Part shown: positions 17,382-55,079 of the stretch, one piece after another
How positions within the stretch are numbered: the first letter of the stretch is position 1
How the letters are laid out: each line of letters opens with the position of its first letter
Origin: Streptomyces pluripotens
Lineage (GTDB): Bacteria > Actinomycetota > Actinomycetes > Streptomycetales > Streptomycetaceae
DNA: 64,000 nt
Direction: 5' to 3'
Assembly (NCBI RefSeq): GCF_000802245.2
Contig: NZ_CP021080.1
Coordinates: 1,736,001 to 1,800,000, forward strand
Translations under genes and position numbers: made by a program
Notes under the pieces: model-generated
Told to the model about the DNA's origin: nothing
What the model saw: only the letters and a program-made list of their open reading frames with translations
Database searches by the model: none

Positions 17382-17774
17382 CAGGCCGACCAGCGCGGCG
17401 GTGAGGACGACGACCTCGACGCTCTTGCGGCCCTCCTCGCTCCAGTAGACGTCGTCCAGATGCAGGATCAGCGCGAACTCGTCCAGGACCAGACCCGCGC
17501 CCATGCCGAACAGGACGGCCGAGATGCCGGCGCCGTAGCCGTGCCGGTCGCTGGCGACCGCCCCGAAGCCGCCGACGACGGTGAGGAGGACCCCGGGGAC
17601 GACGTGGTGGATGTGCAGCCCGCCCGCCTTGACGTTGCCGAACGGGCCCTTCCCGGCCCGGATGAGGCGGGTGATCGTCCGGGTGGCCAGGAAGGTCAGC
17701 ACGAACGCGCCGAGGGCCAGCAGCAGCGGGAACTTGCCCGGCTCGATGATGTTCCGCACCCACCAGTGCCCCAT
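17010..17774 (-). CDS. Conserved integral membrane protein
   Basis: 254 residues with about six membrane helices (FPLLLALGAFVLTFLA, VVPGVLLTVVGGFGAVAS, VLFGMGAGLVLDEFALIL, VVVLTAALVGLLLAGF, ITTIAVNFLFSLIALS, VAVFGVIVPLVALFG). A conserved-looking HIHH motif lies at the start of helix two. The C-terminus is very basic. Function unknown. The ATG lies six bases after TAAAGT, a leaderless arrangement, in a 60-bp divergent gap shared with cobS. Its last 370 bp overlap the open frame of the convergent rhomboid-like gene. Confidence 0.85.
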   Translation of the reverse strand: MGHWWVRNIIEPGKFPLLLALGAFVLTFLATRTITRLIRAGKGPFGNVKAGGLHIHHVVPGVLLTVVGGFGAVASDRHGYGAGISAVLFGMGAGLVLDEFALILHLDDVYWSEEGRKSVEVVVLTAALVGLLLAGFSPFGVNGMTQQELQDRGGAITTIAVNFLFSLIALSKGKARVAVFGVIVPLVALFGAVRLARPGSPWARRFYGHRPRARAKAALRAYRHDRRWARPRRVFQDWIGGKPDPRPVRLPDRR

Positions 17775-17834
17775 GTGCGCACTTTATCCCGCACTCCTGG
17801 AGGGAGCCCGGCAACCGCCGGGTAACCTGCGCCG

Positions 17835-18620
17835 GTGCTCAAGTCCTCCCCGCTCGACGGCCTCCGCTTCGCCTTCGGCACGCTCACCGTGCTGCCCGTT
17901 CGAGTGCACCGCTGGGATCGGGAGGCCGCCCGCGCGGGGATGCTGAACGCCCCGGTGGCCGGCCTGGCCGTCGGCGGCTGCGCGGCCGGGCTGGGGCTGG
18001 GGCTGCTCCTCCTCGGTGCCGGGCCGCTGCTCGCCGCGGTCGGCTCCGCCGCCGTGCCCGCGGCGTTGACCCGGGGACTGCACCTCGACGGGCTCGCCGA
18101 CACCGCCGACGGGCTGGGCAGCGGCAAGCCGGCCGGGGAAGCGCTCAGGATCATGAAGCAGTCGGACATCGGACCGTTCGGGGTGCTCACCCTGGTCCTG
18201 GTGCTGCTGGCCCAGGTGGCCGCACTGGCGCAGGCGTTCGGCGACTCGTGGGCGCGGGGCGCGCTGGCCGCCGTCATCTCCGCGGTCACCGCCCGGCTCG
18301 CGCTCACCCTGGCCGCACGCGCCGGGGTGCCAGCCGCCCGTCCCGAGGGCCTGGGCGCGGCGGTGGCAGGAGTGGTACCGGTGCCGGGTGTGCTGGCCGT
18401 CACGGCCGCCTTCACACTCAGCGCTGCCGCCTGGGGACCACTGTTCGATCCGTACGGCAGCCTGCGGGTGACGGCCGCGGTCCTGCTGTCCTTGGCCACC
18501 TCCGAACTCCTGCTGCGCCGCTGCGTCAGCCGCTTCGGCGGGGTCACCGGGGACGTGTTCGGTGCCCTCGCGGAGACGGCGGCGACGACCGCCCTCGTGG
18601 TGCTGTCCCTGGGGCACTAG
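17835..18620 (+). CDS. cobS: Adenosylcobinamide-GDP ribazoletransferase CobS
   Basis: 261-residue polytopic membrane enzyme that joins adenosylcobinamide-GDP to alpha-ribazole, the last step of cobalamin assembly. Seen: FGTLTVLPVRVHRWD, the active-site-like LTRGLHLDGLADTADGLGSGK with its Asp cluster, and MKQSDIGPFGVL. Size is normal for CobS. The GTG start is six bases after TAACCT, so it is probably leaderless. It works with cobU and cobT in this window. Confidence 0.95.
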   Translation: MLKSSPLDGLRFAFGTLTVLPVRVHRWDREAARAGMLNAPVAGLAVGGCAAGLGLGLLLLGAGPLLAAVGSAAVPAALTRGLHLDGLADTADGLGSGKPAGEALRIMKQSDIGPFGVLTLVLVLLAQVAALAQAFGDSWARGALAAVISAVTARLALTLAARAGVPAARPEGLGAAVAGVVPVPGVLAVTAAFTLSAAAWGPLFDPYGSLRVTAAVLLSLATSELLLRRCVSRFGGVTGDVFGALAETAATTALVVLSLGH

Positions 18621-18678
18621 GTGGACCTGTCAGTCACCGCGGTGGCGGACGCTCGTACGTACGGGACCAGCGGGGTGC

Positions 18679-20226
18679 TCATCGGTGGGCGGTCCCCCTG
18701 CCGAGCAGGCCGCAGACCAGCACGGACTGGGCCAGGGCCGCCGCCGTGTACACCGTGAGGGCGACCGTGTGCGGTTGGCCCGCCCGGGTCAGCAGGGCCA
18801 GGCTCTGGGCGAGGGCCGCGGCGCCGCAGACGGCGGCTGCGCCGATGACGGCGCCGAAGGACTGCAGCAGCAGTCCGGTCCACAGCACCACGCCGAGCGC
18901 GAGCAGCCCGGCAAGGCGCAGGCCGGTGGGTGTGAAAGCGCCCGGCCAGGGCGCGGTGACGGCCAAGGTGAGGACGAGGAGGACGACCAAGTATCCGGTG
19001 AGGCAGCCGGCCAGGGTACGGACGGTGGCCCGGCGGAACGCCCGCGGTGTGCCGCTGGCGCGCAGGGCGGCCAGGCCGCCGCTGCGAAAGCGGTACAGCA
19101 CCCATTCGGCCGGGCCCATGCTGAGCGTGAGGGCCACGGCGGCCGGCGCCGCCAGAGCGTTGGTTCCCGCCCCGCCGAGAACGTCGCCGAGACCTGCGCA
19201 CAGCACCAGGACCCCGGTACCGAGCCCAAACACGGCGTAGGGCAGAGAAGACCGGAGCCGGGGGCCGAGGGCCGGTCGTCGCCGGACCCGAGGACGGGTG
19301 AGGGGGAAGGGCAGCAGGGTGGTCAGGCCGACCGTCCAGACCCGCAGGGGTGGGGCGGCCGAGGCGACCTCGCACAGGCCGAGGACGGCGACCGCGGCGA
19401 GCGATCCCAGCAGCAGGGCCAGGCGGGCCGGTTCGGGGACGGGGCGGGCCAGGGCGAGGAGGGCTCCGCCGGTCATCGGCAGCAGGGCCGCGAGCAGCAC
19501 GCGTTCCCGGCCCAGTACCAGCAGTACGCCGGCGGCGCCCAGGTAGCAGGACTGGCCGGCGGCGAAGGCGGCCGTCACCGGATGCCCGGGTCCGGCGACG
19601 GCGAGCGCGGCCAGGGTGCCGAGGAGCATGCCGACCGGGGTGCCGGTCAGCAGGCAGCGCCGTGCCGCCAGACGGTCCCCGAGGCCCAGCCAGGAGTAGG
19701 CACGATGGGCGAGCCCCTGGTTCCAGGCCCAGCCGCACAGGGCGCCCGCCAGCAGTGCCCGGGTGCCTGCCGGGAGGCCGGGGCCGTGGTGGGGGCCGAC
19801 GAGCAGCGGGGCACCGAGGACGTAGCCGAAGCCGGGCAGCGCGAAAACCAGCCCGCGCAGCAGACAACCGAGGAGTCCGATCCGCCAGGGGTCGGGGGGC
19901 GGGCCGTCCGGCTCTGGGTGGCGACGGGGAGTACGGTCGTAGAGCTGCTCGGCTAGTGCGAAGGAGTCCCCGACGCCGTAGCGCTCGCGTATCTGGTCGT
20001 CGGAGAGGCCGTCGGACTCCAGCAGGGCAGCTACCTCGTCCGGGTGCACGGCAGCGGCCACGAACACCTCCAGTTCGCGGGCCAGTTCGTCGATCGGGTC
20101 CGGCCGGGACCAGCCGGGACGACGGCTACGGGGGATGCCGGACGGGCCCCGGGCGGGGACACGGTCGTGCTCCCGGCCTCGGTTGCGGATGTCGTTCTCC
20201 AGCAGGTCGCGGGTGTCGTCGTTCAC
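18679..20226 (-). CDS. Polytopic membrane protein of a putative exopolysaccharide operon
   Basis: About 515 residues. The N-terminal 110 residues are soluble and Arg/Asp/Glu-rich (DDTRDLLENDIRNRGREHD, LARELEVFVAAAVHPDEVAALL). The rest holds about 11-13 hydrophobic helices separated by short Arg-rich loops, a layout like polysaccharide exporters of the PelG/MATE type. I did not see a diagnostic motif. The GTG start at 20226 overlaps the TGA stop of the PelF-like gene (GTGA), so the two are coupled and the product probably acts with it, perhaps in moving the polymer across the membrane. Assignment to PelG rests on context only. Confidence 0.7.
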   Translation of the reverse strand: MNDDTRDLLENDIRNRGREHDRVPARGPSGIPRSRRPGWSRPDPIDELARELEVFVAAAVHPDEVAALLESDGLSDDQIRERYGVGDSFALAEQLYDRTPRRHPEPDGPPPDPWRIGLLGCLLRGLVFALPGFGYVLGAPLLVGPHHGPGLPAGTRALLAGALCGWAWNQGLAHRAYSWLGLGDRLAARRCLLTGTPVGMLLGTLAALAVAGPGHPVTAAFAAGQSCYLGAAGVLLVLGRERVLLAALLPMTGGALLALARPVPEPARLALLLGSLAAVAVLGLCEVASAAPPLRVWTVGLTTLLPFPLTRPRVRRRPALGPRLRSSLPYAVFGLGTGVLVLCAGLGDVLGGAGTNALAAPAAVALTLSMGPAEWVLYRFRSGGLAALRASGTPRAFRRATVRTLAGCLTGYLVVLLVLTLAVTAPWPGAFTPTGLRLAGLLALGVVLWTGLLLQSFGAVIGAAAVCGAAALAQSLALLTRAGQPHTVALTVYTAAALAQSVLVCGLLGRGTAHR

Positions 20227-21743
20227 CGGGTGGCCCCGTCCTTCGCGATCGCCGCGTACCAAGGGTCGTGCAGTTCGGCGGTCCAGTCGCCGACCGTCTC
20301 GACGGCGGGTTCGTAGCGCTCGGTCAGTCCGGCGAGTTCCTGGTAGATGGTGCGGAAGTTGTCGACCGAGCGGCGCAGGGTGAACCGGTCGATGACGCGT
20401 TGCCGGGCCGACTCACCGAGCTCCAGGCGCCGTTCGTCGTCGCGGAGGAGAGTGAGCGCGGCTGCGGCCATCTTCTCCGGTTCGCGGGGTGGGACGACCA
20501 GACCGGTGTCGCCGACGGCCTCGCGGACCCCGCCGACGTCCGTCGAGACCGTCGTACGGCCGCAGGACATCGCCTCGATGATCGAGAACGGGAAGCCTTC
20601 GGAGATGGAGGAGAGCATGACGAGGTGGCCCGCCGCATAGGCGCGCCAGACCTCGGTGACACGGCCCTCGAAGGTGAGGCCGTCGGTGACGCCGAGTTCG
20701 GCGGCGAGCTTCTCCAGACGGGTGCGGTAGTCCGCGCCGCCGGGCGGGACCGGGCCGAAGAGCCGGAGCCTGGTCTCGGGGAGTTCTGCCCGGACGAGGG
20801 CGTAGGCACGCAGCAGGGTCTCCAGGTCCTTGATGGGGTCGACGCGGCCGCACCAGGTGAGGGTGGGGATCTCGGGTTCGGGTCCGGCGTGCGGAAAGGC
20901 ATGCGGGTCGACGCCGTTGTAGACGGTGCGGATGCGGTCCCCGTCGGCGCCGCCGCGCTCCTCCCAGCGGCGGTTGTACTGGTTGCACGGCGTGATCAGG
21001 TCGGCCGCGCGGTAGCCGTGCGAATTGAGTTCGCGGTAGAAGCCCAGCAGAAACGCCTTCACCGGCCAGCGGTGCCGCTGCCCCCGGTGTCCGAGGTAGC
21101 GCTCGCGTAGATAGATGCCGTGCTCGGTGAGCAGGAACGGCACCCCGTCGAGGTGGTGCGCGGCGAGCGCGGGAAGAGTCGCCAGGCCGCTGCTGACCGC
21201 GTGCGCCACCGAGTCCTCGGGGATCCGCGTCCCGAGGGGGCGCAGGGCGTGTTCCAGCAGGTCGATGGCGGTCAGCGCATCGTGCACGGTGGGCCTGGCA
21301 GCCGCCGTCGGCAGGTGCGGCATCGTCCAGATCCACTGCAGCGACCGCAACGCGGACTCGGTCCGCAGGGCCGCCGCGAGCCACCCGTCCCGGGCGATGA
21401 CGGCCAGTTCGTGCAGCGCCTCGCCGAAGTCGCAGTGCGCCTGCGGGTCCAGGACGGACAGCAGCAGGCGCTCATAAGCGTCGGCGAATCGGCGCCGTGC
21501 TCTGGCACGAGGTGCCCGGGCACGGCCGGGGCACGGACCCCAGGTCGGCACGGTGGTGTGCCGATACACGTTCGGCGGCAGCTCCCACGTGACGGGTTCG
21601 CGGCCGTTGCCGGTGAGCGAGACGAGGTGGAAGGCGACCTCCGGCATGCCCTTGACCAGTTGGTCGCACCAGGTGCTGACCCCGCCGTGGACATGCGGAT
21701 AGGTACCTTCGGTGAGCATGGTGACATGACGACCGGTGCGCAT
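20223..21743 (-). CDS. PelF-like GT4 family glycosyltransferase
   Basis: 506 residues. The N-terminal half begins MLTEGTYPHVHGGVSTWCDQ, the hallmark of the DUF3492/PelF family. The C-terminal half is a GT-B GT4 domain with LTWCGRVDPIKDLETLL, the donor-site block EGFPFSIIEAMSCGRTTVS (the E-x7-E motif) and DVGGVREAVGD. PelF uses UDP-activated hexosamine to build the Pel polysaccharide; here the sugar is not known. It lies 87 bp after the secreted deacetylase gene and overlaps the membrane-protein gene. Start ATG at 21743 keeps the full N-terminal motif; the ribosome site is modest (GGGGGGA). Confidence 0.88.
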   Translation of the reverse strand: MRTGRHVTMLTEGTYPHVHGGVSTWCDQLVKGMPEVAFHLVSLTGNGREPVTWELPPNVYRHTTVPTWGPCPGRARAPRARARRRFADAYERLLLSVLDPQAHCDFGEALHELAVIARDGWLAAALRTESALRSLQWIWTMPHLPTAAARPTVHDALTAIDLLEHALRPLGTRIPEDSVAHAVSSGLATLPALAAHHLDGVPFLLTEHGIYLRERYLGHRGQRHRWPVKAFLLGFYRELNSHGYRAADLITPCNQYNRRWEERGGADGDRIRTVYNGVDPHAFPHAGPEPEIPTLTWCGRVDPIKDLETLLRAYALVRAELPETRLRLFGPVPPGGADYRTRLEKLAAELGVTDGLTFEGRVTEVWRAYAAGHLVMLSSISEGFPFSIIEAMSCGRTTVSTDVGGVREAVGDTGLVVPPREPEKMAAAALTLLRDDERRLELGESARQRVIDRFTLRRSVDNFRTIYQELAGLTERYEPAVETVGDWTAELHDPWYAAIAKDGATR

Positions 21744-21830
21744 GGTGCGCGGTTCCCCCCAGTGGTGCCGGGCGCTCCGGGGCACGCGCGTACGTGTGCC
21801 CCGGGCCCGTGGTGTTGAACTCGCCGTGAG

Positions 21831-23870
21831 TTACGGCAGCTTGAGCGTGAGCGCGGACTGCAGGAGGCCCGGTGTGGCCCAGGCCTGGCGGTCCCCCGCG
21901 TATGCCGTACCGAAGGTGACCGTGGACAGCACCAACTGCTGCCTGGTCCCCTCTGGTGCGGTCACCGGGATCTTCGTGCCCGACGGCGCGGTGACGGTCA
22001 CGGTGTTGCCGATCCGGTACGCCGTGACCTGGCCGGCATCGAGCGCGGTCTGCCACTTCGCCCGGTTCTGCAACTCGGCCCCGATCGCGCTCTCGCGGAG
22101 GTTCACGATGGGGGTGTCGTCCGCGAACAGCGCCCGGTAGTCGCCGAGGACCCGGTCCAGGACCGGGTAGAGGATGCGGTCCTCGGCCAGATTGGTCTGG
22201 TGGGCGTAGTGCGGGCGCGGGTCGTTGCTGAGCACGTGCCCGAGGTCGGTGTGCGCCTCGGCGGGCACGATGTGGTCGAGGTAGCCGGTGGCCGTGTCCA
22301 GCGGCTTGTCCAGGCAGGTGGACGTCGGGTTGTTCTCGCACAGCCCGCTGCCGCCGTCCGCCTTGGACGTGTAGATCCAGTTGTACTCGTCGGCCATCTC
22401 CGTTGTGGTGCCGGCGTTGTAGTACACGTTCATCGGGTAGCGCGGCACGGTGAGCGTGCTGCCTCCGGTGACCGCCCGCTGCTCGGGCTCACGGGAGTTG
22501 TCGGAGCCGGTCCACTGCACGCCGTTGGCGGTGAGGGCGGGCGCGAGGTTGGGATTGTCCTGCGGCTGCTGCGGCAGGGTCTTCAGCCCCGAGTGCTCGC
22601 CGGTGACCAGTTCGCTGCGGTCTACGGGGAGGCCGTGCTGCACGGCCCAGTCGTAGTTGTTCGCGATCTCGGCGGAGATGTCGGAGCGGCTCACCCACTG
22701 CGTGGAGCCGTCGGCGTTCTTCGCGCACGACCACGGCACGGTGGAGGTGTCCTGGACGCAGCCGAGGAACAGATGTGTGTAGGTGTGGTTCACCCAGCGG
22801 TAGTCGGCCTTGTCCGCGAGCAGTTGGTCGGTCAGCGGGTCCTTGCCGCCGTTGTCGCTCTTCCACTGCTCGCCGGCGCCCGCGTTGAACAGCAGGTCGA
22901 GGGTGAAGTCGTGGCTCTGCTCCCAGGCGGCCGCGTACTGGGCATCGGCCGCGGTCATCCGGATCGGCGTGGTGGTGTCCGGAACGCCGCTGCCGCAGTC
23001 GAGGTCGCCGGGCGTGCAGTTGTACTCGGTGTCCCAGCGGGCGTCCGAGGCGAAGACGTCGTCCACGTGCACGGCGAAGTAGTTGCGGGCCTGACCCAGG
23101 TGCACGCCCTGGGTCAGCCACTCGACCATGCCGCGGGCCAGCACCCGGAACTGCTGCTGGTACTGGTTGTAGGCGAAGGTCACCACCAGCTCCCGGCGGC
23201 CGTCGTGCGCGTACTCGCCGAGCAGGCTGCCGGTGCCGGTGCCGCCGGGTACGGGGGTGTCGACATAGCTGGTGAAGCCAGTGCGGGGCTGGGCGACGAA
23301 GCCGTAACTCTCGTCCACGGTGGGCGAGTTGTCCTCGAAGGAGAAAGAGCCCTTCAAATAGCCGAACGGGCCCGCCCGGCCGGCCGTGGTCACGGTGGCC
23401 GTGCGCCCGTCGAGGGGTCCGGCGTAGCCGTCGTCATCGGTGTAGTCGAGGCCGACCTCGGGGTGGGCCCAGGTGTAGGCGTCGAGCTGCGGGATGCCGT
23501 ACGTCTTCTCGTACGCCTCCAGGGCCGTCTGTTCGGCCGAGTCCGCCCCGAACGGAGCCTCGTTCGGCAGGACCACGCCTTGGAACTTGGCCCGGGGCCG
23601 ACCATCGACGGTGTCGCTCAGGAAGGCGGCGGTGACGGTGGGGCGCCCGGAGTCGTCCAGGTTCACGGTGGTGTACGGGATGCCCTCGCTCTTCAGCTGC
23701 GCGGTGATCGCGCCGACGGAGCTGCTGCCGTCGTCGACCACGAGCACCTTCAGGTCGATGCGCGGATCGGTCGCCGCCGATGCGGCCGGTGCGGCCAGCC
23801 CCAGGGTGATCATCCCCGCGACCGTCACGGTGACGGTGGCCGCTCTCCAGCGGTGCGCGCGGTGGGTCAT
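21831..23870 (-). CDS. Secreted CE18/Agd3-like polysaccharide deacetylase
   Basis: 679 residues with a Sec signal peptide (MTHRAHRWRAATVTV..., cleavage near APAASAA/TDP). An N-terminal Rossmann-like module (VLVVDDGSSS to GVVLPNEAP) precedes a deacetylase-type barrel with HVDDVF (about 266-272), NHTYTH (about 361-366, H-x3-H metal pair) and TGEHSG (about 426). This order resembles fungal Agd3 (family CE18), which de-N-acetylates galactosaminogalactan. Activity and substrate are inferred. Cys pairs (CTPGDLDC, CVQDTSTVPWSC) fit an extracellular protein. ATG at 23870 has a GGGGAGGT site. First gene of the operon; it diverges from pepA. Confidence 0.75.
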   Translation of the reverse strand: MTHRAHRWRAATVTVTVAGMITLGLAAPAASAATDPRIDLKVLVVDDGSSSVGAITAQLKSEGIPYTTVNLDDSGRPTVTAAFLSDTVDGRPRAKFQGVVLPNEAPFGADSAEQTALEAYEKTYGIPQLDAYTWAHPEVGLDYTDDDGYAGPLDGRTATVTTAGRAGPFGYLKGSFSFEDNSPTVDESYGFVAQPRTGFTSYVDTPVPGGTGTGSLLGEYAHDGRRELVVTFAYNQYQQQFRVLARGMVEWLTQGVHLGQARNYFAVHVDDVFASDARWDTEYNCTPGDLDCGSGVPDTTTPIRMTAADAQYAAAWEQSHDFTLDLLFNAGAGEQWKSDNGGKDPLTDQLLADKADYRWVNHTYTHLFLGCVQDTSTVPWSCAKNADGSTQWVSRSDISAEIANNYDWAVQHGLPVDRSELVTGEHSGLKTLPQQPQDNPNLAPALTANGVQWTGSDNSREPEQRAVTGGSTLTVPRYPMNVYYNAGTTTEMADEYNWIYTSKADGGSGLCENNPTSTCLDKPLDTATGYLDHIVPAEAHTDLGHVLSNDPRPHYAHQTNLAEDRILYPVLDRVLGDYRALFADDTPIVNLRESAIGAELQNRAKWQTALDAGQVTAYRIGNTVTVTAPSGTKIPVTAPEGTRQQLVLSTVTFGTAYAGDRQAWATPGLLQSALTLKLP

Positions 23871-24222
23871 GGCAAGTACCTCCCCCCAGAAGACCCTCCA
23901 CGGCGAGCCGTTTCGGCTCGGCAGAGGGTCAGCGGAAATGATGCGAACGGCAGGCAGACTGCCCACCGGAACTCGATGAGTGTGGCTCAAATCACCGGTC
24001 TGCAAGGGGGAGAACCGGCCACGACGCCACGCACGGGTGAACGTCCGTAGAAATGAGCGAACGCGCGCACACGCGTAGTCTCGTCCCGGGTGTTTGCCGG
24101 CAGGGTGAAGGACCCGGTTGCCACATGCCTCCGGGCCTGGGCCTAGGGTCGGCTCTCGGGCCCGGTCGACCCACCCCACTTCGGCCACAGCAATTTCACA
24201 TCGGAAGCGAGAATTCACCACC
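23871..24222. other. Divergent promoter region, deacetylase operon / pepA
   Basis: 352 bp without a gene. It must hold the promoters for the minus-strand exopolysaccharide operon and for pepA. I see no clear palindromic operator or riboswitch in it. Confidence 0.5.
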
Positions 24223-25764
24223 GTGACTGCTCTGACTCTCAGCACCGCCGCAGCGCCCGGCCTGCGGGCCGACGCGATTGTGATCGGTGTCGCCAAGGGC
24301 GCCCAGGGGCCCGTCGTCGCGCCCGGCGCCGAGGCCGTGGACAAGGCGTACGACGGCAAGCTGGCCGGCGTCCTGGAGACCCTCGGCGCCTCGGGTGCCG
24401 AGGGCGAGCTGACGAAGCTGCCCGCTCCGGCCGGCTTCAAGGCACCGCTCGTCGTGGCAGTGGGCCTGGGCGAGGAGCCCGGCGCCGAGGACGCCGGCTA
24501 CGACGACGAGGCCCTGCGCAAGGCCGCCGGCGTGGCCGCCCGGGCGCTCACCGGCTCGAAGAAGGCCGCCTTCGCGCTGCCCGTCGACGGCCCCGGCGCC
24601 ATCGGCGCGATCAGCGAGGGCATCCTGCTCGGCGCCTACTCCTTCGACGCCTACAAGGAGAACGGCCGCCCGGCTCGGAGCGCCGCCAAGGCCAAGAACG
24701 GCAACGCGCCGCTGGCCGAGGCTGCGCTGCTCGGCGGCAAGCCGCGCGACGCCGTCCACAAGGACGCGGTCGCACGGGCCGTCGCGGTTGCCGAGGAACT
24801 GAACCGCTCCCGCGACCTGATCAACACCCCGCCGAACGACCTCACCCCCGCGGCCTTCGCCGGTATCGCGCAGGCCGCGGGCAAGGAGCACGGCATCAAG
24901 GTGCAGGTGCTCGACGACAAGGCTCTGGTCAAGGGCGGCTACGGCGGCATCCTCGGCGTCGGCGGAGGCTCGGCTGCGACCCCGCGCCTGGTGAAGCTGT
25001 CGTACACGCACCCCAAGGCGGAGAAGCACCTGGCTTTCGTCGGCAAGGGCATCACCTACGACTCGGGCGGCATCTCCCTGAAGCCGGCCGGCCACAACGA
25101 GACGATGAAGTGCGACATGAGCGGTGCCGCCGCCGTGTTCGCGGCCGTGGTCGCCGCCGCCAGGCTCGGCCTGCGGGTCAACGTCACCGGCTGGCTGGCG
25201 CTGGCGGAGAACATGCCGTCCGGCTCCGCCGTCCGCCCGGGTGATGTCCTGCGCATGTACAGCGGCAAGACCGTCGAGGTCCTCAACACCGATGCCGAGG
25301 GCCGGCTGGTCCTCGCCGACGCGCTGTGGGCGGCCTCGCAGGAGAAGCCGGACGCGATCGTGGACGTTGCCACCCTGACCGGCGCGATGGTGCTGGCACT
25401 GGGCAGCCGGACCTTCGGCGTCATGGCCAACGACGACGCGTTCCGCTCGGCAGTGCAGGAGGCCGCCGAGGAGGTCGGCGAGCCGGCGTGGCCGATGCCG
25501 CTGCCGGAGCACCTGTGCAAGAGCATGGAGTCGCCGGTGGCCGACATGGCGAACATGGGTGAGCGGATGGGCGGCGGCCTGGTCGCCGGTCTGTTCCTGC
25601 GCGAGTTCGTGGGCGAGGGGATCACCTGGGCCCACCTCGACATCGCCGGCCCGGCGTTCAACGAGGGTGGGCCGTTCGGATACACGCCGAAGGGTGGTAC
25701 GGGGTCGGCCGTGCGGACCCTGGTGCGGCTGGCGGAGCTCACCGCCGCGGGTGACCTGGGCTGA
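24223..25764 (+). CDS. pepA: Leucyl aminopeptidase PepA (M17)
   Basis: 513-residue cytosolic di-metal exopeptidase. The catalytic C-terminal domain shows GKGITYDSGGISLKPAG (metal-binding Lys and Asp), MKCDMSGAAAV, and NTDAEGRLVLADAL with the DAEGR signature. The N-terminal macro-like domain is normal in length. GTG at 24223 starts the conserved VTALTLSTAAAPGL sequence. A long hairpin follows the stop codon. Confidence 0.95.
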   Translation: MTALTLSTAAAPGLRADAIVIGVAKGAQGPVVAPGAEAVDKAYDGKLAGVLETLGASGAEGELTKLPAPAGFKAPLVVAVGLGEEPGAEDAGYDDEALRKAAGVAARALTGSKKAAFALPVDGPGAIGAISEGILLGAYSFDAYKENGRPARSAAKAKNGNAPLAEAALLGGKPRDAVHKDAVARAVAVAEELNRSRDLINTPPNDLTPAAFAGIAQAAGKEHGIKVQVLDDKALVKGGYGGILGVGGGSAATPRLVKLSYTHPKAEKHLAFVGKGITYDSGGISLKPAGHNETMKCDMSGAAAVFAAVVAAARLGLRVNVTGWLALAENMPSGSAVRPGDVLRMYSGKTVEVLNTDAEGRLVLADALWAASQEKPDAIVDVATLTGAMVLALGSRTFGVMANDDAFRSAVQEAAEEVGEPAWPMPLPEHLCKSMESPVADMANMGERMGGGLVAGLFLREFVGEGITWAHLDIAGPAFNEGGPFGYTPKGGTGSAVRTLVRLAELTAAGDLG

Positions 25765-25805
25765 CGTTCGCCCGCCAGCTCGTTCCGTCCGCTCTGCGGC
25801 GGCTT

Positions 25806-25845
25806 GAGGGGCGTGGGGGCTGGTTGCGCAGCCCCCACGCCCCTC
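25806..25845 (+). terminator. Terminator after pepA
   Basis: A 17-bp perfect stem (25806-25822 with 25829-25845) with a six-base loop, GGGGCGTGGGGGCTG in the left arm, lies 42 bp past the pepA stop. Confidence 0.9.
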
Positions 25846-25873
25846 CCGGCGTACCTTCCGTTCCGGTGCACGT

Positions 25874-25890
25874 GGGGTGTCTCACACCCC
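25874..25890. promoter_or_regulatory. Short inverted repeat upstream of lpd
   Basis: GGGGTGT-CTC-ACACCCC is a perfect 7-bp inverted repeat 170 bp before the lpd start. It could be an operator or a small hairpin in the leader. Confidence 0.3.
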
Positions 25891-26058
25891 GGCCCGGCGT
25901 CTCGTCCGCCTCGAACAAGTGCAAAGATGGAGCCCGGCAGGACAGGGCCCCACCGAAGGGCCGAAGCATCAAGCGGCCGGACACCAGCCGACCGGCCGGA
26001 CACCTCCCACAGGGACGAGGGTGCCCGGCGTGCGGCGCACATGCATGGAGGACGTGAC

Positions 26059-49175: not shown

Positions 49176-50420
49176 TCAATCGGCGGCGCCGTGCCGCAGC
49201 ACGAGCGCCGCGTTCGACCCCATGAGTCCGCGGCTGAGGATCAGTGCCGTGCGCGGCTCGCCGGCGCGTGCGCGGCCGGTCACGAGATCGAGGTCGTGGC
49301 AGATGTCGAAGATCCCCGGCGTGGGCGGGATCAGGCCGTGCTCCATGGCGAGCACCGCCGCTGCGACGTCCAGCACCGGGGCCGCGCAGTACCCACGGCC
49401 GATCCCGGTCTTGGGCGCCGTGACGGGCACGCGCCGGCCGTGCGCACCGAGGGCGTCCGTGATGGCCAGCGCCTCCGCGTGGTCGGCCGCCCGCACCCCG
49501 AGGGCGTCGGCGAAGACCACGTCGACCTCCTCCGGTGCGCAGCCGGCCTCGTCGAGGGCGCCGCGGATCGCGTGGGCGAGCCCGGCCCGCGACTCGGCCC
49601 AGCGGGAGGCGCCGGTGAAGGTCGCCGCGTGCCCGGCGATGGTGGCCCGCACCGCCAGTCCCCGCTCCGTCGCCGAGGCCATCTCCTCCACGACGAGCAT
49701 GGCGCCGCCCTCGGCAGGTACGAAACCGCAGGCGCCGTCGGTGAACGGGAGGTAGGCGCGTGCCGGGTCGGCCTCGCGGCTCAGCTCCTCGTAGCCGAGC
49801 TGGCACACGGCCGAGTAGGGGGCGAGCGGCGCCTCGGTCGAACCGGCCACGATGACGTCGGTGCCGCGCCGCACGGCGCGGGCGGCGTGCGCGAGGGCGT
49901 CCAGGCCGCCCGCCTCGTCGGCGGCGACCACCGAGCAGGGTCCCCTGAAGCCACGCCGGATGGAGATCTGGCCGGTGCTGGCGGCGTAGAACCACGCGAT
50001 GGACTGGTAGGGGCCGACGAACCGGCTTCCCCTGCTCCACAGTTGCTGCAGTTCCCGCTGGCCGAACTCGCCACCGCCGGAGCCTGCTGCCGTGACCACG
50101 CCCACGGAGAACGGTGCGCCCTCCGTATCGGCCCGGCCGAGCCGGGCGTCCTCCAGCGCGAGGTCGGCCGCGGCCATCGCGAAGTGGGTGAAGCGGTCGG
50201 TCTGGACGAGGAAGCGCTCCTCGATCGCAGCGACCGGATCGAAGCCGCGGACCTCGCCGGCCACGCGCAGGGGCAGGTGCGCGCAGCCCTCGCGGGTCAC
50301 TCGGTCGAGGGTGCTGATGCCTTCCTGGACCGACTTCCAGAAGGTCTCCGTGCTCGTTCCGTTGGGCGCGACGACACCGATTCCGGTGACGGCCGCCTGC
50401 CGAGGAGAGGGTTCGCTCAT
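49176..50420 (-). CDS. Chain-length factor, KS-beta (WhiE ORFIV-like)
   Basis: 414 residues of ketosynthase fold without the nucleophile. The position equal to the KS Cys is Glu169 ([16 protein letters not shown]); most antibiotic-type CLFs have Gln there. The KS-type His motifs are degraded. With KS-alpha it decides chain length. The ATG overlaps the KS stop by four bases (ATGA). Confidence 0.95.
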
Positions 50421-51685
50421 CGTGTCCTTCCTCTCGGCCGGGTCAACACCACGGCGGACTGGAAGCCTCCGAAGCCGCTGCCCACGGACAGGACGCTGGT
50501 CAGCGTCCGCTCGCGGGCGGTGCGCGGTACGTAGTCGAGGTCGCACTCGGGGTCGGGTGTCTCGTAGTTCGCGGTGGGCGGTACGACCTGGTGGGCCAGG
50601 GCCAGCACACAGGCCACGACCTCGATCGCCCCGATCGCCCCGAGGGAGTGGCCCACCATGGATTTGATGGAGCTCATGGGCGTGGTGTAGGCGTGTTGCC
50701 CCAGGGCCCGCTTCACCGCGGCGGTCTCGTGGCGGTCGTTCTGCCGGGTGCCGGATCCATGGGCGTTGACGTAGTCGATCGCGGTGGGGTCGAGGCGGGC
50801 GTGGTCGAGGGCCGTCTCGATCGCCCGGGCCATCTCCAGACCCTCGCTGGTCAGACCGGTCATGTGGTAGGCGTTGCCGAAGGTGGCGTAGCCGCCCAGT
50901 TCGCAGTACACGCGGGCGCCACGGGCCCTGGCGTGCTCCAGTTCCTCAAGGACGAGCACCGCCCCTCCCTCGCCCATGACGAACCCGTCACGGTCGTTGT
51001 CGAAGGGCCTGGAGGCGTGTGCGGGATCGTCGTTGTTGGGAGACGTGGCCTTGATCGCGTCGAAGCAGGCCATGGTGATGGGGGATATCGGCGAGTCCGA
51101 GGCGCCGGCGATGCAGACGTCGGCCCGGCCTTCCTGGACGGTGTGGAAGGCGTATCCGACGGCGTCCAGGCCCGAGGTGCACCCGGTGGAGACGGTCTGC
51201 ACCGGGCCCTGGGCGCCAAATCGTTCCGCCACCGCCGAGGCCAGTGTGCTGGGGGAGAACGCCCGGTGCAGTTGGGGACCCGCCTTGCGGTGGTCCACGT
51301 CCCAGTGCTGCCCGCTGTCGCTCACCAGGACGTAGTCGTGCTCCAGGCGGGTCGTGCCGCCGACGGCAGTGCCCAGGGACACCCCCACCCGCCAGGTGTC
51401 CTCCTGGGCCAGGTCGAGACCGGAGTCCCGTATCGCTTCCTCCCCGGCGACCAGGGCGAACTGTATGTATCGGTCCGCCCGCTCGATCTGCTCGGCGTCC
51501 AGGCCGTACGCCGCCGGATCGAAGTCGCACTCGGCGGCGATCCTTGACCGCAGGCCGCTCGGGTCGAAGAAGGTGATGCCCCGCGTCGCGGTACGGCCCG
51601 CAGCGAGCAGGTCCCAGAACGCCGGTATGCCTGTCCCGCCCGGTGCCACGATGCCTATGCCGGTGACCGCCACGCGCCGGCTCAT
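50417..51685 (-). CDS. Ketosynthase KS-alpha (WhiE ORFIII-like)
   Basis: 422 residues. The active site is Cys169 in [15 protein letters not shown], with His in [14 protein letters not shown] and [14 protein letters not shown]. It condenses malonyl-ACP units into an aromatic-polyketide precursor. Start ATG overlaps the cupin stop (ATGA). The active-site surroundings and operon order match spore-pigment KS genes. Confidence 0.97.
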
Positions 51686-52125
51686 GAACGGACCTGCCCC
51701 CGGACGGCCGGCTCGGCCGGGACAGTGGCGGAGAGGGGCTCCGTCTCCTCCGTGTCGACGTGGCCGAGATTCGGGCGCGGCGCCAACGGGCCCAGGTGGA
51801 AGACGATCCGCGCCTCGACGTCCCCCACGTTGCGGAAGCGGTGCCGCATGTTGATCGGGATCATCAGTCCCTGTTCGGGCCGCAGCGGGTGCGGTTCGCC
51901 GTCCAGGTCCACCTCCAGTTGCCCGCAGGCCACGTACACGAACTCCTCGGAGTACGGGTGGTAGTGCTCAGCGATGCGGTCACCGGGCTGCACGATGGCC
52001 ACACCCATGAATCCGCTGGTGGAGCCCACTGTGGCCGGGGAGAGCATGGCGCGCAGATCGCCACCACGCCGGGTGTTGGGCTCGATCTCGCTGAGGTCGA
52101 CGATCTTCGGAAGGGGCTTGATCAC
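51682..52125 (-). CDS. Cupin protein (WhiE ORFII-like)
   Basis: 147 residues with a single cupin barrel: [21 protein letters not shown] with the His/His/Glu metal set, and [13 protein letters not shown] with the third His. In whiE clusters this gene is conserved between ORFI and KS; its exact role is unsettled. GTG start overlaps the previous stop (GTGA). Confidence 0.92.
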
Positions 52126-53228
52126 GACGTTCCTCCGTGGGGGTGCTGGCCTGCGGGGTCAGGCGCCGGTGAGTGACGGTCGGTGATGAGGTCCATACGG
52201 ACGGCGTCGCCGTTCAGCAGGGCGGTTGCCGCGGCCACCGGGGTCACGTCCAGGTCCGCGCCGGCGCGCAGGTCGATCAGCCGTACGGTGATGTCGTCGC
52301 GCTGGAAGATCGTGCTGCTCACCACCGGGCTGGCCGGGTCCTCCGCCGCCGCCTCGTCCGCTTGGGCGAGCAGCTCGGCCAGCCGCATCCCGCTGCCCGG
52401 CCGGGCCGGGTAGTACAGCGCGTACCGCTCGCCCTCGGACCGTTCGTCCGCGGCGACGTGGTGCACGGCGGGCAGCGCCGCCCGCGTGAAGAACACCCGG
52501 GCGGACTCCGGGTCGTTGAGGTCCCGGTCGTGCTCCAGGTACGGGTTGAGGGCCTCCTCGACCTGCCGCACCTCCGGCTGCCGGGCGACGTGGCGCAGCG
52601 CCGCGAGCAGGTCACCGCGCACCTCGATGGCCCGGACGACCCGGTTGCCGTGCATGAACAGGGAGGTGCGGCACAGACGGGTGGTCTCGTCGACCCGCGC
52701 CTCGGGCGAGGCGTAGTTCGCGAGGATCTCGGCGACCCGCTTCTCGCTGCCCGGCTTGACCGTGAAGGTGAGCGCGTGCCGGATCACGCCGTCGCCGATG
52801 CGGGGCGACGTCTGGAGGCGGCGCTGGGCCGCGGAGTCCGCGGGCGTCTCGCTATGAGTCTCACGGACGATGTGGAAGCGCAGCGACCGGGTGTCGCGGA
52901 CACAGCTGTGCAGCGGCTCCACCATCCGCACATGCTCCTCGCTGTTCACCCAAGCGAGGAACGGCGGGGCGCTCTCCCACTCACTGGTGATGAGCCACTG
53001 GGAGGGGTTCTCGATCGACTGGCACAACTGGTCACTGACGTGCCCGGGCACCGACGCTACCTGGTTGCACAGTTGCTCGTACGCCTCCAGGAACTGCTGC
53101 TGGGCGCCGTCGTGCACATCCACCAGCAGGACGACACGGAGACGGGAGCCGTCGAAGACGGACTGGGATACGCGTCTCGACACCTTCCGCGTCAGCTGTT
53201 CCGAGACCTGTTCCGATGTCGTGGTCAT
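52122..53228 (-). CDS. SchA/CurD-like domain protein (WhiE ORFI-like)
   Basis: 368 residues. The N-terminal third ([40 protein letters not shown]) is an antibiotic-biosynthesis-monooxygenase-like ferredoxin fold; the central part ([23 protein letters not shown] to [19 protein letters not shown]) is the SchA/CurD-like domain named after spore-pigment genes of S. halstedii and S. curacoi. First gene of the minus-strand operon; ATG at 53228 has AAGGAGA seven bases upstream. Function within pigment synthesis is not established. Confidence 0.92.
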
Positions 53229-53429
53229 ACCGCACGTCTCCTTAGCGGGGGCAGGGAGTTGACGTCGCCACCGATGACGCGACGCCAGCACTTTTTGATC
53301 CTGTTCCGCTCCCCCGGAGCGCGCGACTCGCGTGAACCAAGCGGGTGATTGAGCACGCGGACCCCCTCCAGCGGGGGCATGGAAACTCCGACGCGCCCCA
53401 CACCCTGCCCCCTGTCTCTGGAGTCCTTG
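53229..53429. promoter_or_regulatory. Divergent promoter region of the pigment genes
   Basis: 201 bp separate the PKS operon from the divergent hydroxylase gene, as in whiE, where this gap is developmentally controlled by late sporulation sigma factors. I see no confident -10/-35 pair or palindrome. Confidence 0.5.
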
Positions 53430-55079
53430 ATGCAGCAGAAAGCCGATCACCAGGTCCCCGTCCTCATCGTGGGCGGCTCGCTGGTGGGCCTGTCCCTGTC
53501 CCTGTTCCTGGGCCGTCTCGGCGTGCGGCACATGCTCGTCGAACGGCACTCGGGAACCTCGATCCATCCCCGCGGACGCGGCAACAACGTGCGGACGATG
53601 GAGCTGTTCCGGGTGGCTGGCATCGAGCCGGACATCAAGGCGGCAGCCTCACTCCTCGCGGACAACCACGGCATCCTGCAGACACCGACCTTGGCCGGTG
53701 ACGCCGGCGAATGGCTGTTCCGGGAGATCGACCCCGGGGGCGGGCTCGCCCGGTTCAGCCCCACGGGTTGGTGCCTGTGCAGCCAGAACGACCTGGAACC
53801 GGTGCTCCTGGACAGGGCCCGGGCACTCGGTGGCGACCTCAGGTACTCACACGAGTTGGAGTCCTTCACCCAGGACGCCGAGGGGGCGACGGGGTCCGTC
53901 GTCGACCGCGGCACCGGCGAGCGATACACGGTCCGCGCGGACTACCTGGTCGCCGCCGACGGCCCGCGCAGCCCCGTCCGGAGCCGGCTCGGCATCGAGC
54001 AAACCGGCCCCGGCGACCTGTTCGCCAACGTGAGTGTCACCTTCCGCTCCCAGCTGCTCGCCGACGCCGTCGGCGACCGGCGTTTCATCTGCTGTTACCT
54101 CACCGACCCCGAGGCCGACGGCGCCCTGCTCCCCGTCGACAACAAGGAACAGTGGGTCTTCCACGCGCCCTGGCACCCGGAGCGCGGAGAGACGCTGGAG
54201 GAGTTCACCGAAGAACGGCTCAGGCGCCACATCCGCCGGGCCGTCGGCGTCCCCGACCTGGACGTGGAGGTCACCGGAATGGCGTCCTGGCGGGCCGCCG
54301 AACGCGTCGCCGAGCAGTACGCGGCCGGCCGGGTCTTCCTCGCCGGCGACTCGGCGCACGAGATGTCGCCGACCGGCGCGTTCGGCTCCAACACCGGCAT
54401 CCAGGACGCCCACAACCTGGCCTGGAAACTGGCCGCCGTCCTCGGCGGCTGGGCCGGACCAGGACTACTGGAGACCTACGGGACCGAACGGCGCCCCGTC
54501 GCCCTGGCCACCAGCGCCCGCGCCTCGGCCCGCTCCGTGGAACACAGCCACCCCGGCTTCGCCCCCGCCCCCGGCGTCGGAGTCGGTGGGAAGCGCGGCG
54601 GCATCCTCAACATCGTCCTCGGGTACCGCTACCCGCAGGGCGCCGTGGCGGGGGGCGACCCGTCCCAGCCGGTCGTACCCGAACGGGTGCACCTGAGCGG
54701 GGAGCCGGGCACCCGGGCACCCCACCTGTGGCTGCGCCGCACGGGCGAACGGCTCTCCACCCTCGACCTGTACGAGCGCTCACTGGTACTGCTCAGCGAC
54801 GCCGACACGGCGGCGGGCGCGGCCTGGCAGGCCGCCGCCCGTCGCATCGCCGACACGGACGGCCTGCCGCTGCGGGCATACCGGATCGGTACCGGCCCCG
54901 AGGCGGAGCTGACGTACGACGCGGAGGACGAGGACTGGGCGGCAACGCACGGCACGACGGGCGACGGGGCGGTGCTAGTGCGGCCCGACGGTTTCGTCGC
55001 CTGGCGTTCCCCCGGGGCCACGACGGATCCGGAGGCAGAGCTGCGGGACGTACTGGCGGCGATTCTGCGGACCCGCTGA
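53430..55079 (+). CDS. FAD-dependent aromatic hydroxylase (WhiE ORFVIII-like)
   Basis: 549 residues of the PHBH/PheA-type monooxygenases. FAD motifs: VLIVGGSLVGLSLSLFLGRLG at the N-terminus, LVAADGPRSPVRSRLGI, and VFLAGDSAHEMSPTGAFG. It hydroxylates the polyketide ring. ATG at 53430 is seven bases after GGAG and gives a normal N-terminus; earlier in-frame ATGs lack a site. Divergent from the PKS operon as in whiE. An ABM-type thioredoxin-like tail follows residue 430. Confidence 0.94.
   Translation: MQQKADHQVPVLIVGGSLVGLSLSLFLGRLGVRHMLVERHSGTSIHPRGRGNNVRTMELFRVAGIEPDIKAAASLLADNHGILQTPTLAGDAGEWLFREIDPGGGLARFSPTGWCLCSQNDLEPVLLDRARALGGDLRYSHELESFTQDAEGATGSVVDRGTGERYTVRADYLVAADGPRSPVRSRLGIEQTGPGDLFANVSVTFRSQLLADAVGDRRFICCYLTDPEADGALLPVDNKEQWVFHAPWHPERGETLEEFTEERLRRHIRRAVGVPDLDVEVTGMASWRAAERVAEQYAAGRVFLAGDSAHEMSPTGAFGSNTGIQDAHNLAWKLAAVLGGWAGPGLLETYGTERRPVALATSARASARSVEHSHPGFAPAPGVGVGGKRGGILNIVLGYRYPQGAVAGGDPSQPVVPERVHLSGEPGTRAPHLWLRRTGERLSTLDLYERSLVLLSDADTAAGAAWQAAARRIADTDGLPLRAYRIGTGPEAELTYDAEDEDWAATHGTTGDGAVLVRPDGFVAWRSPGATTDPEAELRDVLAAILRTR

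Follow-up and report, generated by a model that had tools for sequence, protein, structure and literature searches.

We analysed three genes, here called agd3, pelF and mem, on the minus strand of a 64,000-nucleotide stretch of Streptomyces pluripotens DNA (contig NZ_CP021080.1, positions 1,736,001 to 1,800,000; hereafter the window, to which all coordinates refer). The trio sits between pepA and cobS, and the features of the locus are as follows.

21831..23870, minus strand: agd3, predicted to encode an Agd3-like secreted polysaccharide deacetylase (CE18/CBM87-like) of 679 amino acids, with a Sec signal ending ASA-A
20223..21743, minus strand: pelF, predicted to encode a PelF-like GT4 glycosyltransferase of 506 amino acids, from the ATG at 21743 to the stop at 20223 (NCBIfam PelF equivalog; Pfam DUF3492)
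18679..20226, minus strand: mem, encoding a membrane protein of 515 amino acids with a MOP fold and 12 membrane helices in its predicted model
18621..18678, no strand: 58-bp gap from the mem stop to the cobS stop; in most relatives, Spherulin-4 and/or GH114 genes occupy this position (tblastn)
24196..25764, plus strand: pepA (leucyl aminopeptidase), divergent from agd3, start codon unsettled (NCBIfam NF002073, 655.8 bits, cut-off 432)
17835..18620, plus strand: cobS (adenosylcobinamide-GDP ribazoletransferase), convergent with the trio (best NCBIfam E-value 7.5e-45, under the curated cut-offs)

The spacing between agd3 and pelF is 87 bp, and the GTG start of mem overlaps the pelF stop as GTGA, which bears out the operon-like packing proposed in an earlier model-made note on this DNA (the sequence-only reading); its coordinates, lengths, gap and overlap are all correct, with the open reading frames (ORFs) on the minus strand. 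The pelF frame remains open upstream as far as a GTG at 21785, and the chosen ATG has GGGGGAA just upstream. The ORFs are not products of chance: homologues at E ≤ 0.001 number 2142 for the deacetylase and 1293 for the membrane protein, with about 8000 candidates scored for each.

The 679-amino-acid protein is probably an Agd3/CE18-like deacetylase, an assignment supported by its predicted structure, for which Agd3 is by far the top match, and which has the three-domain architecture of Agd3 (CBM87, CE barrel and beta-rich C-terminus). Its N-terminus carries a Sec-type signal sequence (judged by eye and by hydropathy), and no equally hydrophobic stretch follows. The HVDD, NHTYTH and TGEHSG motifs pointed out by the sequence-only reading are all present; 58 aligned family proteins agree without exception at H268, D270, D271, N361, H362, T363, H366 and T423-S427 and almost without exception at Y364 and G428, but vary at V269 and T365. 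The presumably catalytic residues of CM1 (D270/D271), CM2 (H362/H366), CM3 (R477) and CM4 (H557) are conserved, the last two motifs being assigned through alignment to an Agd3_CE member. In Pfam, the protein scores 21.2 bits for Agd3_CE and 13 bits for CBM87 (curated cut-off 27.6), a profile-linked relative scores 85.8 and 45.1 bits, and PF25115 is a precomputed annotation on 4 of the 120 homologues listed. Because PDB sequence searches, run with the single sequence and with profile A2, did not return Agd3 among their matches, the assignment rests on structure and on this profile bridge. The earlier claim of an Agd3/CE18-like protein thus agrees with structure, motifs and profile, and the failure to match CE18 by HMM or structure that would speak against it was not found, since CE18 structures match. 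That the gene instead encodes a common CE4-type enzyme deacetylating peptidoglycan or chitin, standing next to an unrelated glycosyltransferase, is disfavoured, and we consider it highly improbable.

The middle gene product, judged by its sequence, is a member of the PelF family. It matches the NCBIfam PelF equivalog NF038011 with 169.6 bits (cut-off 100) over model positions 2-489 of 489, matches Pfam DUF3492 with an E-value of 1.7e-55, and contains the complete TEGTYPHVHGG signature, so that its earlier designation as a PelF-type GT4 enzyme stands.

The predicted model of the 515-amino-acid protein has 12 long membrane helices, within the earlier estimate of about 11 to 13, preceded by a conserved N-terminal helical domain (approximately residues 44-100), and it shows the fold of the MOP superfamily. 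PelG is a member of the same superfamily. The identification as PelG itself, however, fails at the sequence level, leaving only the fold in common: the PelG family PF16933 gave no match to mem at E ≤ 1, the sole PF16933 match in the genome of the window lies outside the locus and reaches 24.2 bits against a cut-off of 29, and hhalign comparison of the mem profile with a two-row PelG alignment, a weak test, returned a probability of 0.1. Likewise, a PDB sequence search with mem gave no matches at E ≤ 10.

Considering the three genes together, we propose, with a probability of roughly two in three, that the trio is an eroded synthase locus, functional now or in the recent past, for an exopolysaccharide resembling galactosaminogalactan (GAG) or Pel. 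In the cytoplasm, PelF would polymerise a UDP-activated N-acetylhexosamine, most likely UDP-N-acetylgalactosamine (UDP-GalNAc); the MOP-fold protein would take the chain over the membrane in place of PelG, its N-terminal helical domain perhaps docking PelF; and the secreted Agd3-like enzyme would render the polymer cationic by removing some of its N-acetyl groups, through a CE4-like mechanism that depends on a metal. A partly deacetylated amino-sugar polymer, suggested already in the sequence-only reading, would be the natural product of Agd3-like and PelF genes. Several points weigh against this proposal: no sequence link connects mem with PelG, the Agd3_CE score of the deacetylase is below the curated cut-off, the sugar substrate of the window's PelF clade is not readable from sequence, the locus holds no nucleotide-sugar epimerase, the missing genes described below may be a sign of a locus in the process of being lost, and the support is computational rather than biochemical. 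Three of these points, namely the unreadable PelF substrate, the lack of an epimerase and a MOP protein that is not PelG by sequence, would also suit the same machinery making a different polymer, such as a GlcNAc-rich (GlcNAc, N-acetylglucosamine), mixed or wall-attached amino-sugar chain instead of a GAG/Pel-like GalNAc polymer. On the other hand, Agd3, Spherulin4/GH135 and GH114 all have fungal members acting on polymers of GalNAc or galactosamine (GalN), according to the portions consulted of PMC7229062 and PMC12054363, and Spherulin4/GH135 and GH114 accompany the locus in other species; we regard a different polymer as unlikely.

The same site in relatives places the trio in a wider context. 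The best 80 of 236 Streptomyces loci were searched by tblastn, and 62 of them reach cobS and could be scored from agd3 to cobS; tblastn covered 185 loci in all, and Pfam confirmed Spherulin4 and GH114 in examples. Absences were scored by tblastn and not from GC3 gene calls, because the GC3 gene caller missed real genes. The full set agd3-pelF-mem-Spherulin4-GH114, homologous to the fungal GAG set minus its epimerase, is present in 37 of the 62 loci, while 13 lack only GH114 and 4 lack only Spherulin4. The trio alone, as in the window, occurs in two (L001, L050), agd3 with GH114 and without pelF and mem in one (L014), and agd3 alone in five (L002, L003, L004, L007 and L046). The remaining 18 of the 80 loci show no cobS; nine of these hold all five genes, and the others mostly end early. 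A second set drawn from a genus sample, which has genomes in common with the first, comprised 36 cobS-bounded loci: 19 with five genes, 12 without GH114, two without Spherulin4, one trio, none with agd3 and GH114, and two with agd3 only.

In the window, neither the Sph3-like GH135 nor the Ega3-like GH114 gene is found in the locus, and tblastn gave no match to Spherulin-4 or GH114 across all 64 kb. Since relatives mostly hold five genes, the window locus, by its gene content, looks like an eroded three-gene remnant of a five-gene cluster, and its description as a "minimal, undescribed variant" is not borne out. The earlier remark on parts missing relative to Pel operons is right that PelD and PelE are not in the operon and that hydrolases are absent here, but hydrolase genes stand at this site in most relatives. 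The question whether the trio co-occurs beside cobS is answered in its favour: pelF and mem follow agd3 in 56/62 cobS-bounded loci. Thus, of the two findings that together would count against the trio, a membrane protein of an unrelated family and a lack of co-conservation, the first applies insofar as the protein is not PelG by sequence, whereas the second does not.

The genome of the window (7.35 Mb, one contig) contains three DUF3492 genes and two Agd3 genes, so that the pepA/cobS locus (type A) has paralogues. The type B locus, at 7.06 Mb (L085:6279-14878), has the order agd3-pelF-mem-SDR-nucleotidyltransferase-SDR-Spherulin4, where both short-chain dehydrogenase/reductase (SDR) proteins are SDR epimerases; its Agd3 and mem products are 62% and 48% identical to those of the window. 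The type C locus, at 4.90 Mb (L086:5615-12759), comprises pelF, mem, SDR and Spherulin4 without agd3, and is preceded by a gene for a DUF3152 protein. A GH114 gene is found, unlinked, at 0.27 Mb. The Spherulin4 genes of the two paralogous loci and the unlinked GH114 gene could supply the trimming hydrolases that type A lacks here. Within a genus sample, 88/199 genomes have an Agd3-like match or a piece of one, some of them fragments; across the class, such matches, some partial, were found in 11/148 genomes, six of the 11 being Streptomyces. A PelF match to the type C copy at E ≤ 1e-60 was found in 96/101 Streptomyces, with at least 52% identity in at least 91/101, and the neighbours of type C-like pelF were inspected in the window's genome alone. 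Separately, three Streptomyces loci (L130, L131 and L132) have Agd3-like genes of about 44% identity with no PelF match within 17-19 kb; the first two carry, upstream, a gene judged by eye to be aldehyde-dehydrogenase-like.

An agd3 tree, built by a quick method from 74 proteins (that of the window, those of 72 type A relatives whose loci either include cobS or extend more than 8 kb downstream, and one type B outgroup), places the window in a seven-member group (SH-aLRT 91) in which GH114 is found in no member and Spherulin4 in one. The absence of pelF and mem requires five changes on the best tree, the agd3-only state four, of which three are forced by supported branches, the absence of Spherulin4 seven and that of GH114 ten. 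Although these counts alone decide neither way, we infer loss in preference to gain because the five-gene order is shared, and the series suggests that relatives may have lost genes of the pepA/cobS copy serially, with agd3 often the last to be kept.

The six genomes with an orphan type A agd3 (five with agd3 only and one with GH114) each contain a type B PelF (80-88% identity) together with a type C-like one (46-49%), as does L047, whose contig ends after agd3; the 63-64% match to type A PelF found in synthase-bearing genomes was seen in none of the six or in L047. Residues D270, D271, H362, H366, R477 and H557 are retained in 6/6 orphan Agd3 copies examined and in the paralogue. The median ratio of nonsynonymous to synonymous substitution rates (dN/dS) of agd3 is 0.361 in orphan pairs (15 pairs) vs. 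0.379 in synthase-bearing pairs (2211 pairs), with 0.263 for the orphan sister pair L002/L003 and 0.22 between the window and its nearest relative. As estimated from these alignments, the ratios show orphan agd3 genes apparently under purifying selection, within the limit that divergence in orphan pairs may mostly predate the loss of pelF and mem. Two other views of the solo genes were rejected: that they represent a different paralogue is ruled out by their occupying the same pepA/cobS site, and that they are degenerating is unsupported by dN/dS, most pairs spanning time before the loss.

These data also bear on the view that the trio is a decaying remnant of little function, in which only the deacetylase is useful, acting in trans on the polymer of the type B (7.06-Mb) or type C (4.90-Mb) locus. 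Such a remnant would be in keeping with the relatives reduced to agd3 (5/62) or to agd3 and GH114 (1/62), with the five changes on the best tree, with type B PelF in all six orphan genomes, and with the orphan dN/dS values, most of whose time may precede the loss. Against this, the window has intact reading frames for both pelF and mem, the former matching the PelF model over its full length; we judge a remnant of little function to be quite improbable, and prefer a synthase locus that works or did so until recently.

Gene loss was further compared with the presence of type B, which was scored from PelF searches because the Agd3 search, scoring five candidates per genome, appears to under-report: G264 shows no type B in the Agd3 search and a type B PelF in the PelF search, although an agd3-less type B locus would look alike. 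Among 63 tested rows, type B coexists with 13/13 loci without Spherulin4 (the window included) vs. 15/50 with it (Fisher p 3.6e-6); however, an independent-pairs test (five pairs on supported branches, median p 0.5) found this not significant after correction for descent. The same test for missing pelF gave p 1 with four pairs, and no clear association was seen between a missing GH114 and type B (13/21 vs. 15/42, p 0.06). Left out of the 63 rows are L139 (G195: Spherulin4 present, no type B) and one exception, G306 (locus L187; completeness 95, contamination 6), which has neither Spherulin4 nor type B and whose mem and cobS matches are short. The simplest reading is that the products of A and B are interchangeable, and therefore that A genes are dispensable where B is present; we infer that the secreted deacetylase goes last since it could act on the polymer of the other locus.

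By extension, streptomycetes might run a modular, multi-locus GAG-like system, in which type C PelF is nearly universal, the A and B deacetylase loci come and go, and the exporters form a distinct MOP-fold family, whose N-terminal docking domain replaces the PelD/PelE scaffold. Synthase and hydrolase genes could then be lost while agd3 is kept, because Agd3 would act in trans. We put this forward tentatively, as a possibility that falls somewhat short of even odds. The gene-content series offers a natural experiment bearing on two questions: which parts a locus can do without, and whether the secreted deacetylase of one locus can act for another.

Loci of this kind are already known. Bamford et al. 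(2020; PMC7229062), in the portions consulted, report Agd3 homologues in 45 bacterial species, with agd3 in or near carbohydrate operons in 30/35 species of their tree; every operon identified has a cytoplasmic glycosyltransferase and a multi-spanning membrane protein, as in the window, often with GH114, and with Spherulin-4 in some Actinobacteria. Its main text discusses galactosamine polymers of Streptomyces and names the genus four times, in the Discussion and references and for no operon; paralogous loci and serial gene loss do not appear in the portions consulted. The GAG cluster of Aspergillus fumigatus (uge3, gtb3, agd3, sph3, ega3), as described there, shares with the window the three-domain Agd3-like deacetylase and the glycosyltransferase and membrane parts, which form one predicted integral-membrane glycosyltransferase in the fungus and two genes here, a likeness drawn from the description and not from the Gtb3 sequence (PMC7229062). 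Sph3-like and Ega3-like hydrolases also occur in the window's relatives, whereas the window lacks both, as well as the epimerase. Our literature search did not find the pepA/cobS five-gene locus, its paralogues, the repeated erosion or an exporter family that has an N-terminal domain peculiar to it in print, with subscription papers, figures and supplements lying beyond its reach.

Pel operons (P. aeruginosa pelABCDEFG and Gram-positive pelDEADAFG), as far as described in the consulted part of PMC7112168, have PelF, a deacetylase and a membrane exporter in common with the window; unlike them, the window operon has no PelD or PelE and no PelG by sequence, and its deacetylase is CE18-like, not CE21 or CE26. 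The absence of PelD and PelE refers to the trio operon, which is directly flanked by cobS and pepA, and no search for them was made elsewhere in the genome. PelADA of B. cereus (CE26/CBM114) also has an N-terminal alpha/beta/alpha binding domain in an Agd3-like layout, as in the window deacetylase, and its authors assign it a family of its own, according to the sections seen of PMC13254593. Agd3 is nearer than PelADA to the window deacetylase, with no PelADA chain among the structural matches listed. In a distant actinobacterial genome (L119:3993-13139), genes for a GAF-GGDEF protein that resembles PelD by eye, for PelF and for a true PelG precede one for a CE18/CBM87 deacetylase and, on the opposite strand, Spherulin4; as far as its predicted genes indicate, this arrangement is a hybrid of the Pel and GAG gene sets. 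In L120, tblastn likewise gives the order pelF-pelG-agd3-Spherulin4.

If our proposal is correct, the ability to make a cationic GalN polymer of the fungal type could extend to a large proportion of streptomycetes, which might bear on hyphal aggregation and attachment. It would also bear on an old report of an S. griseus galactosaminidase and on the proposal that the fungal GAG cluster is of bacterial origin, both recounted in the consulted text of PMC7229062. In Streptomyces, the MatAB locus for poly-N-acetylglucosamine (PNAG) likewise concerns an amino-sugar polymer in hyphal aggregation, whereas its product is poly-beta-1,6-GlcNAc (PMC5972031, in the portion consulted).

With regard to regulation, no cyclic di-GMP (c-di-GMP) riboswitch was seen, because an Rfam scan of 17500-26000 gave no matches at E ≤ 1. 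A promoter scan found no promoter-like sites, using a sigma-70 pattern that fits Streptomyces poorly, and a terminator scan found one terminator-like site vs. 1.1 expected. A GTGA-N2-TG-N3-CACA element at 23981-23995, some 110 bp ahead of the agd3 start, is kept in 11/12 aligned loci (absent in L007). We take it to resemble a BldD-type site, as a candidate only; if so, it could allow c-di-GMP control without PelD.

We presume the MatAB genes to be unrelated to the trio. Elsewhere in the window, 49176-55079 appears to be a type II polyketide cluster, encoding two adjacent ketosynthase-type (FabF-like) proteins and an aklavinone-hydroxylase-like FAD enzyme, with small neighbours that are cyclase-like by eye; its product is, we assume, perhaps a spore pigment.

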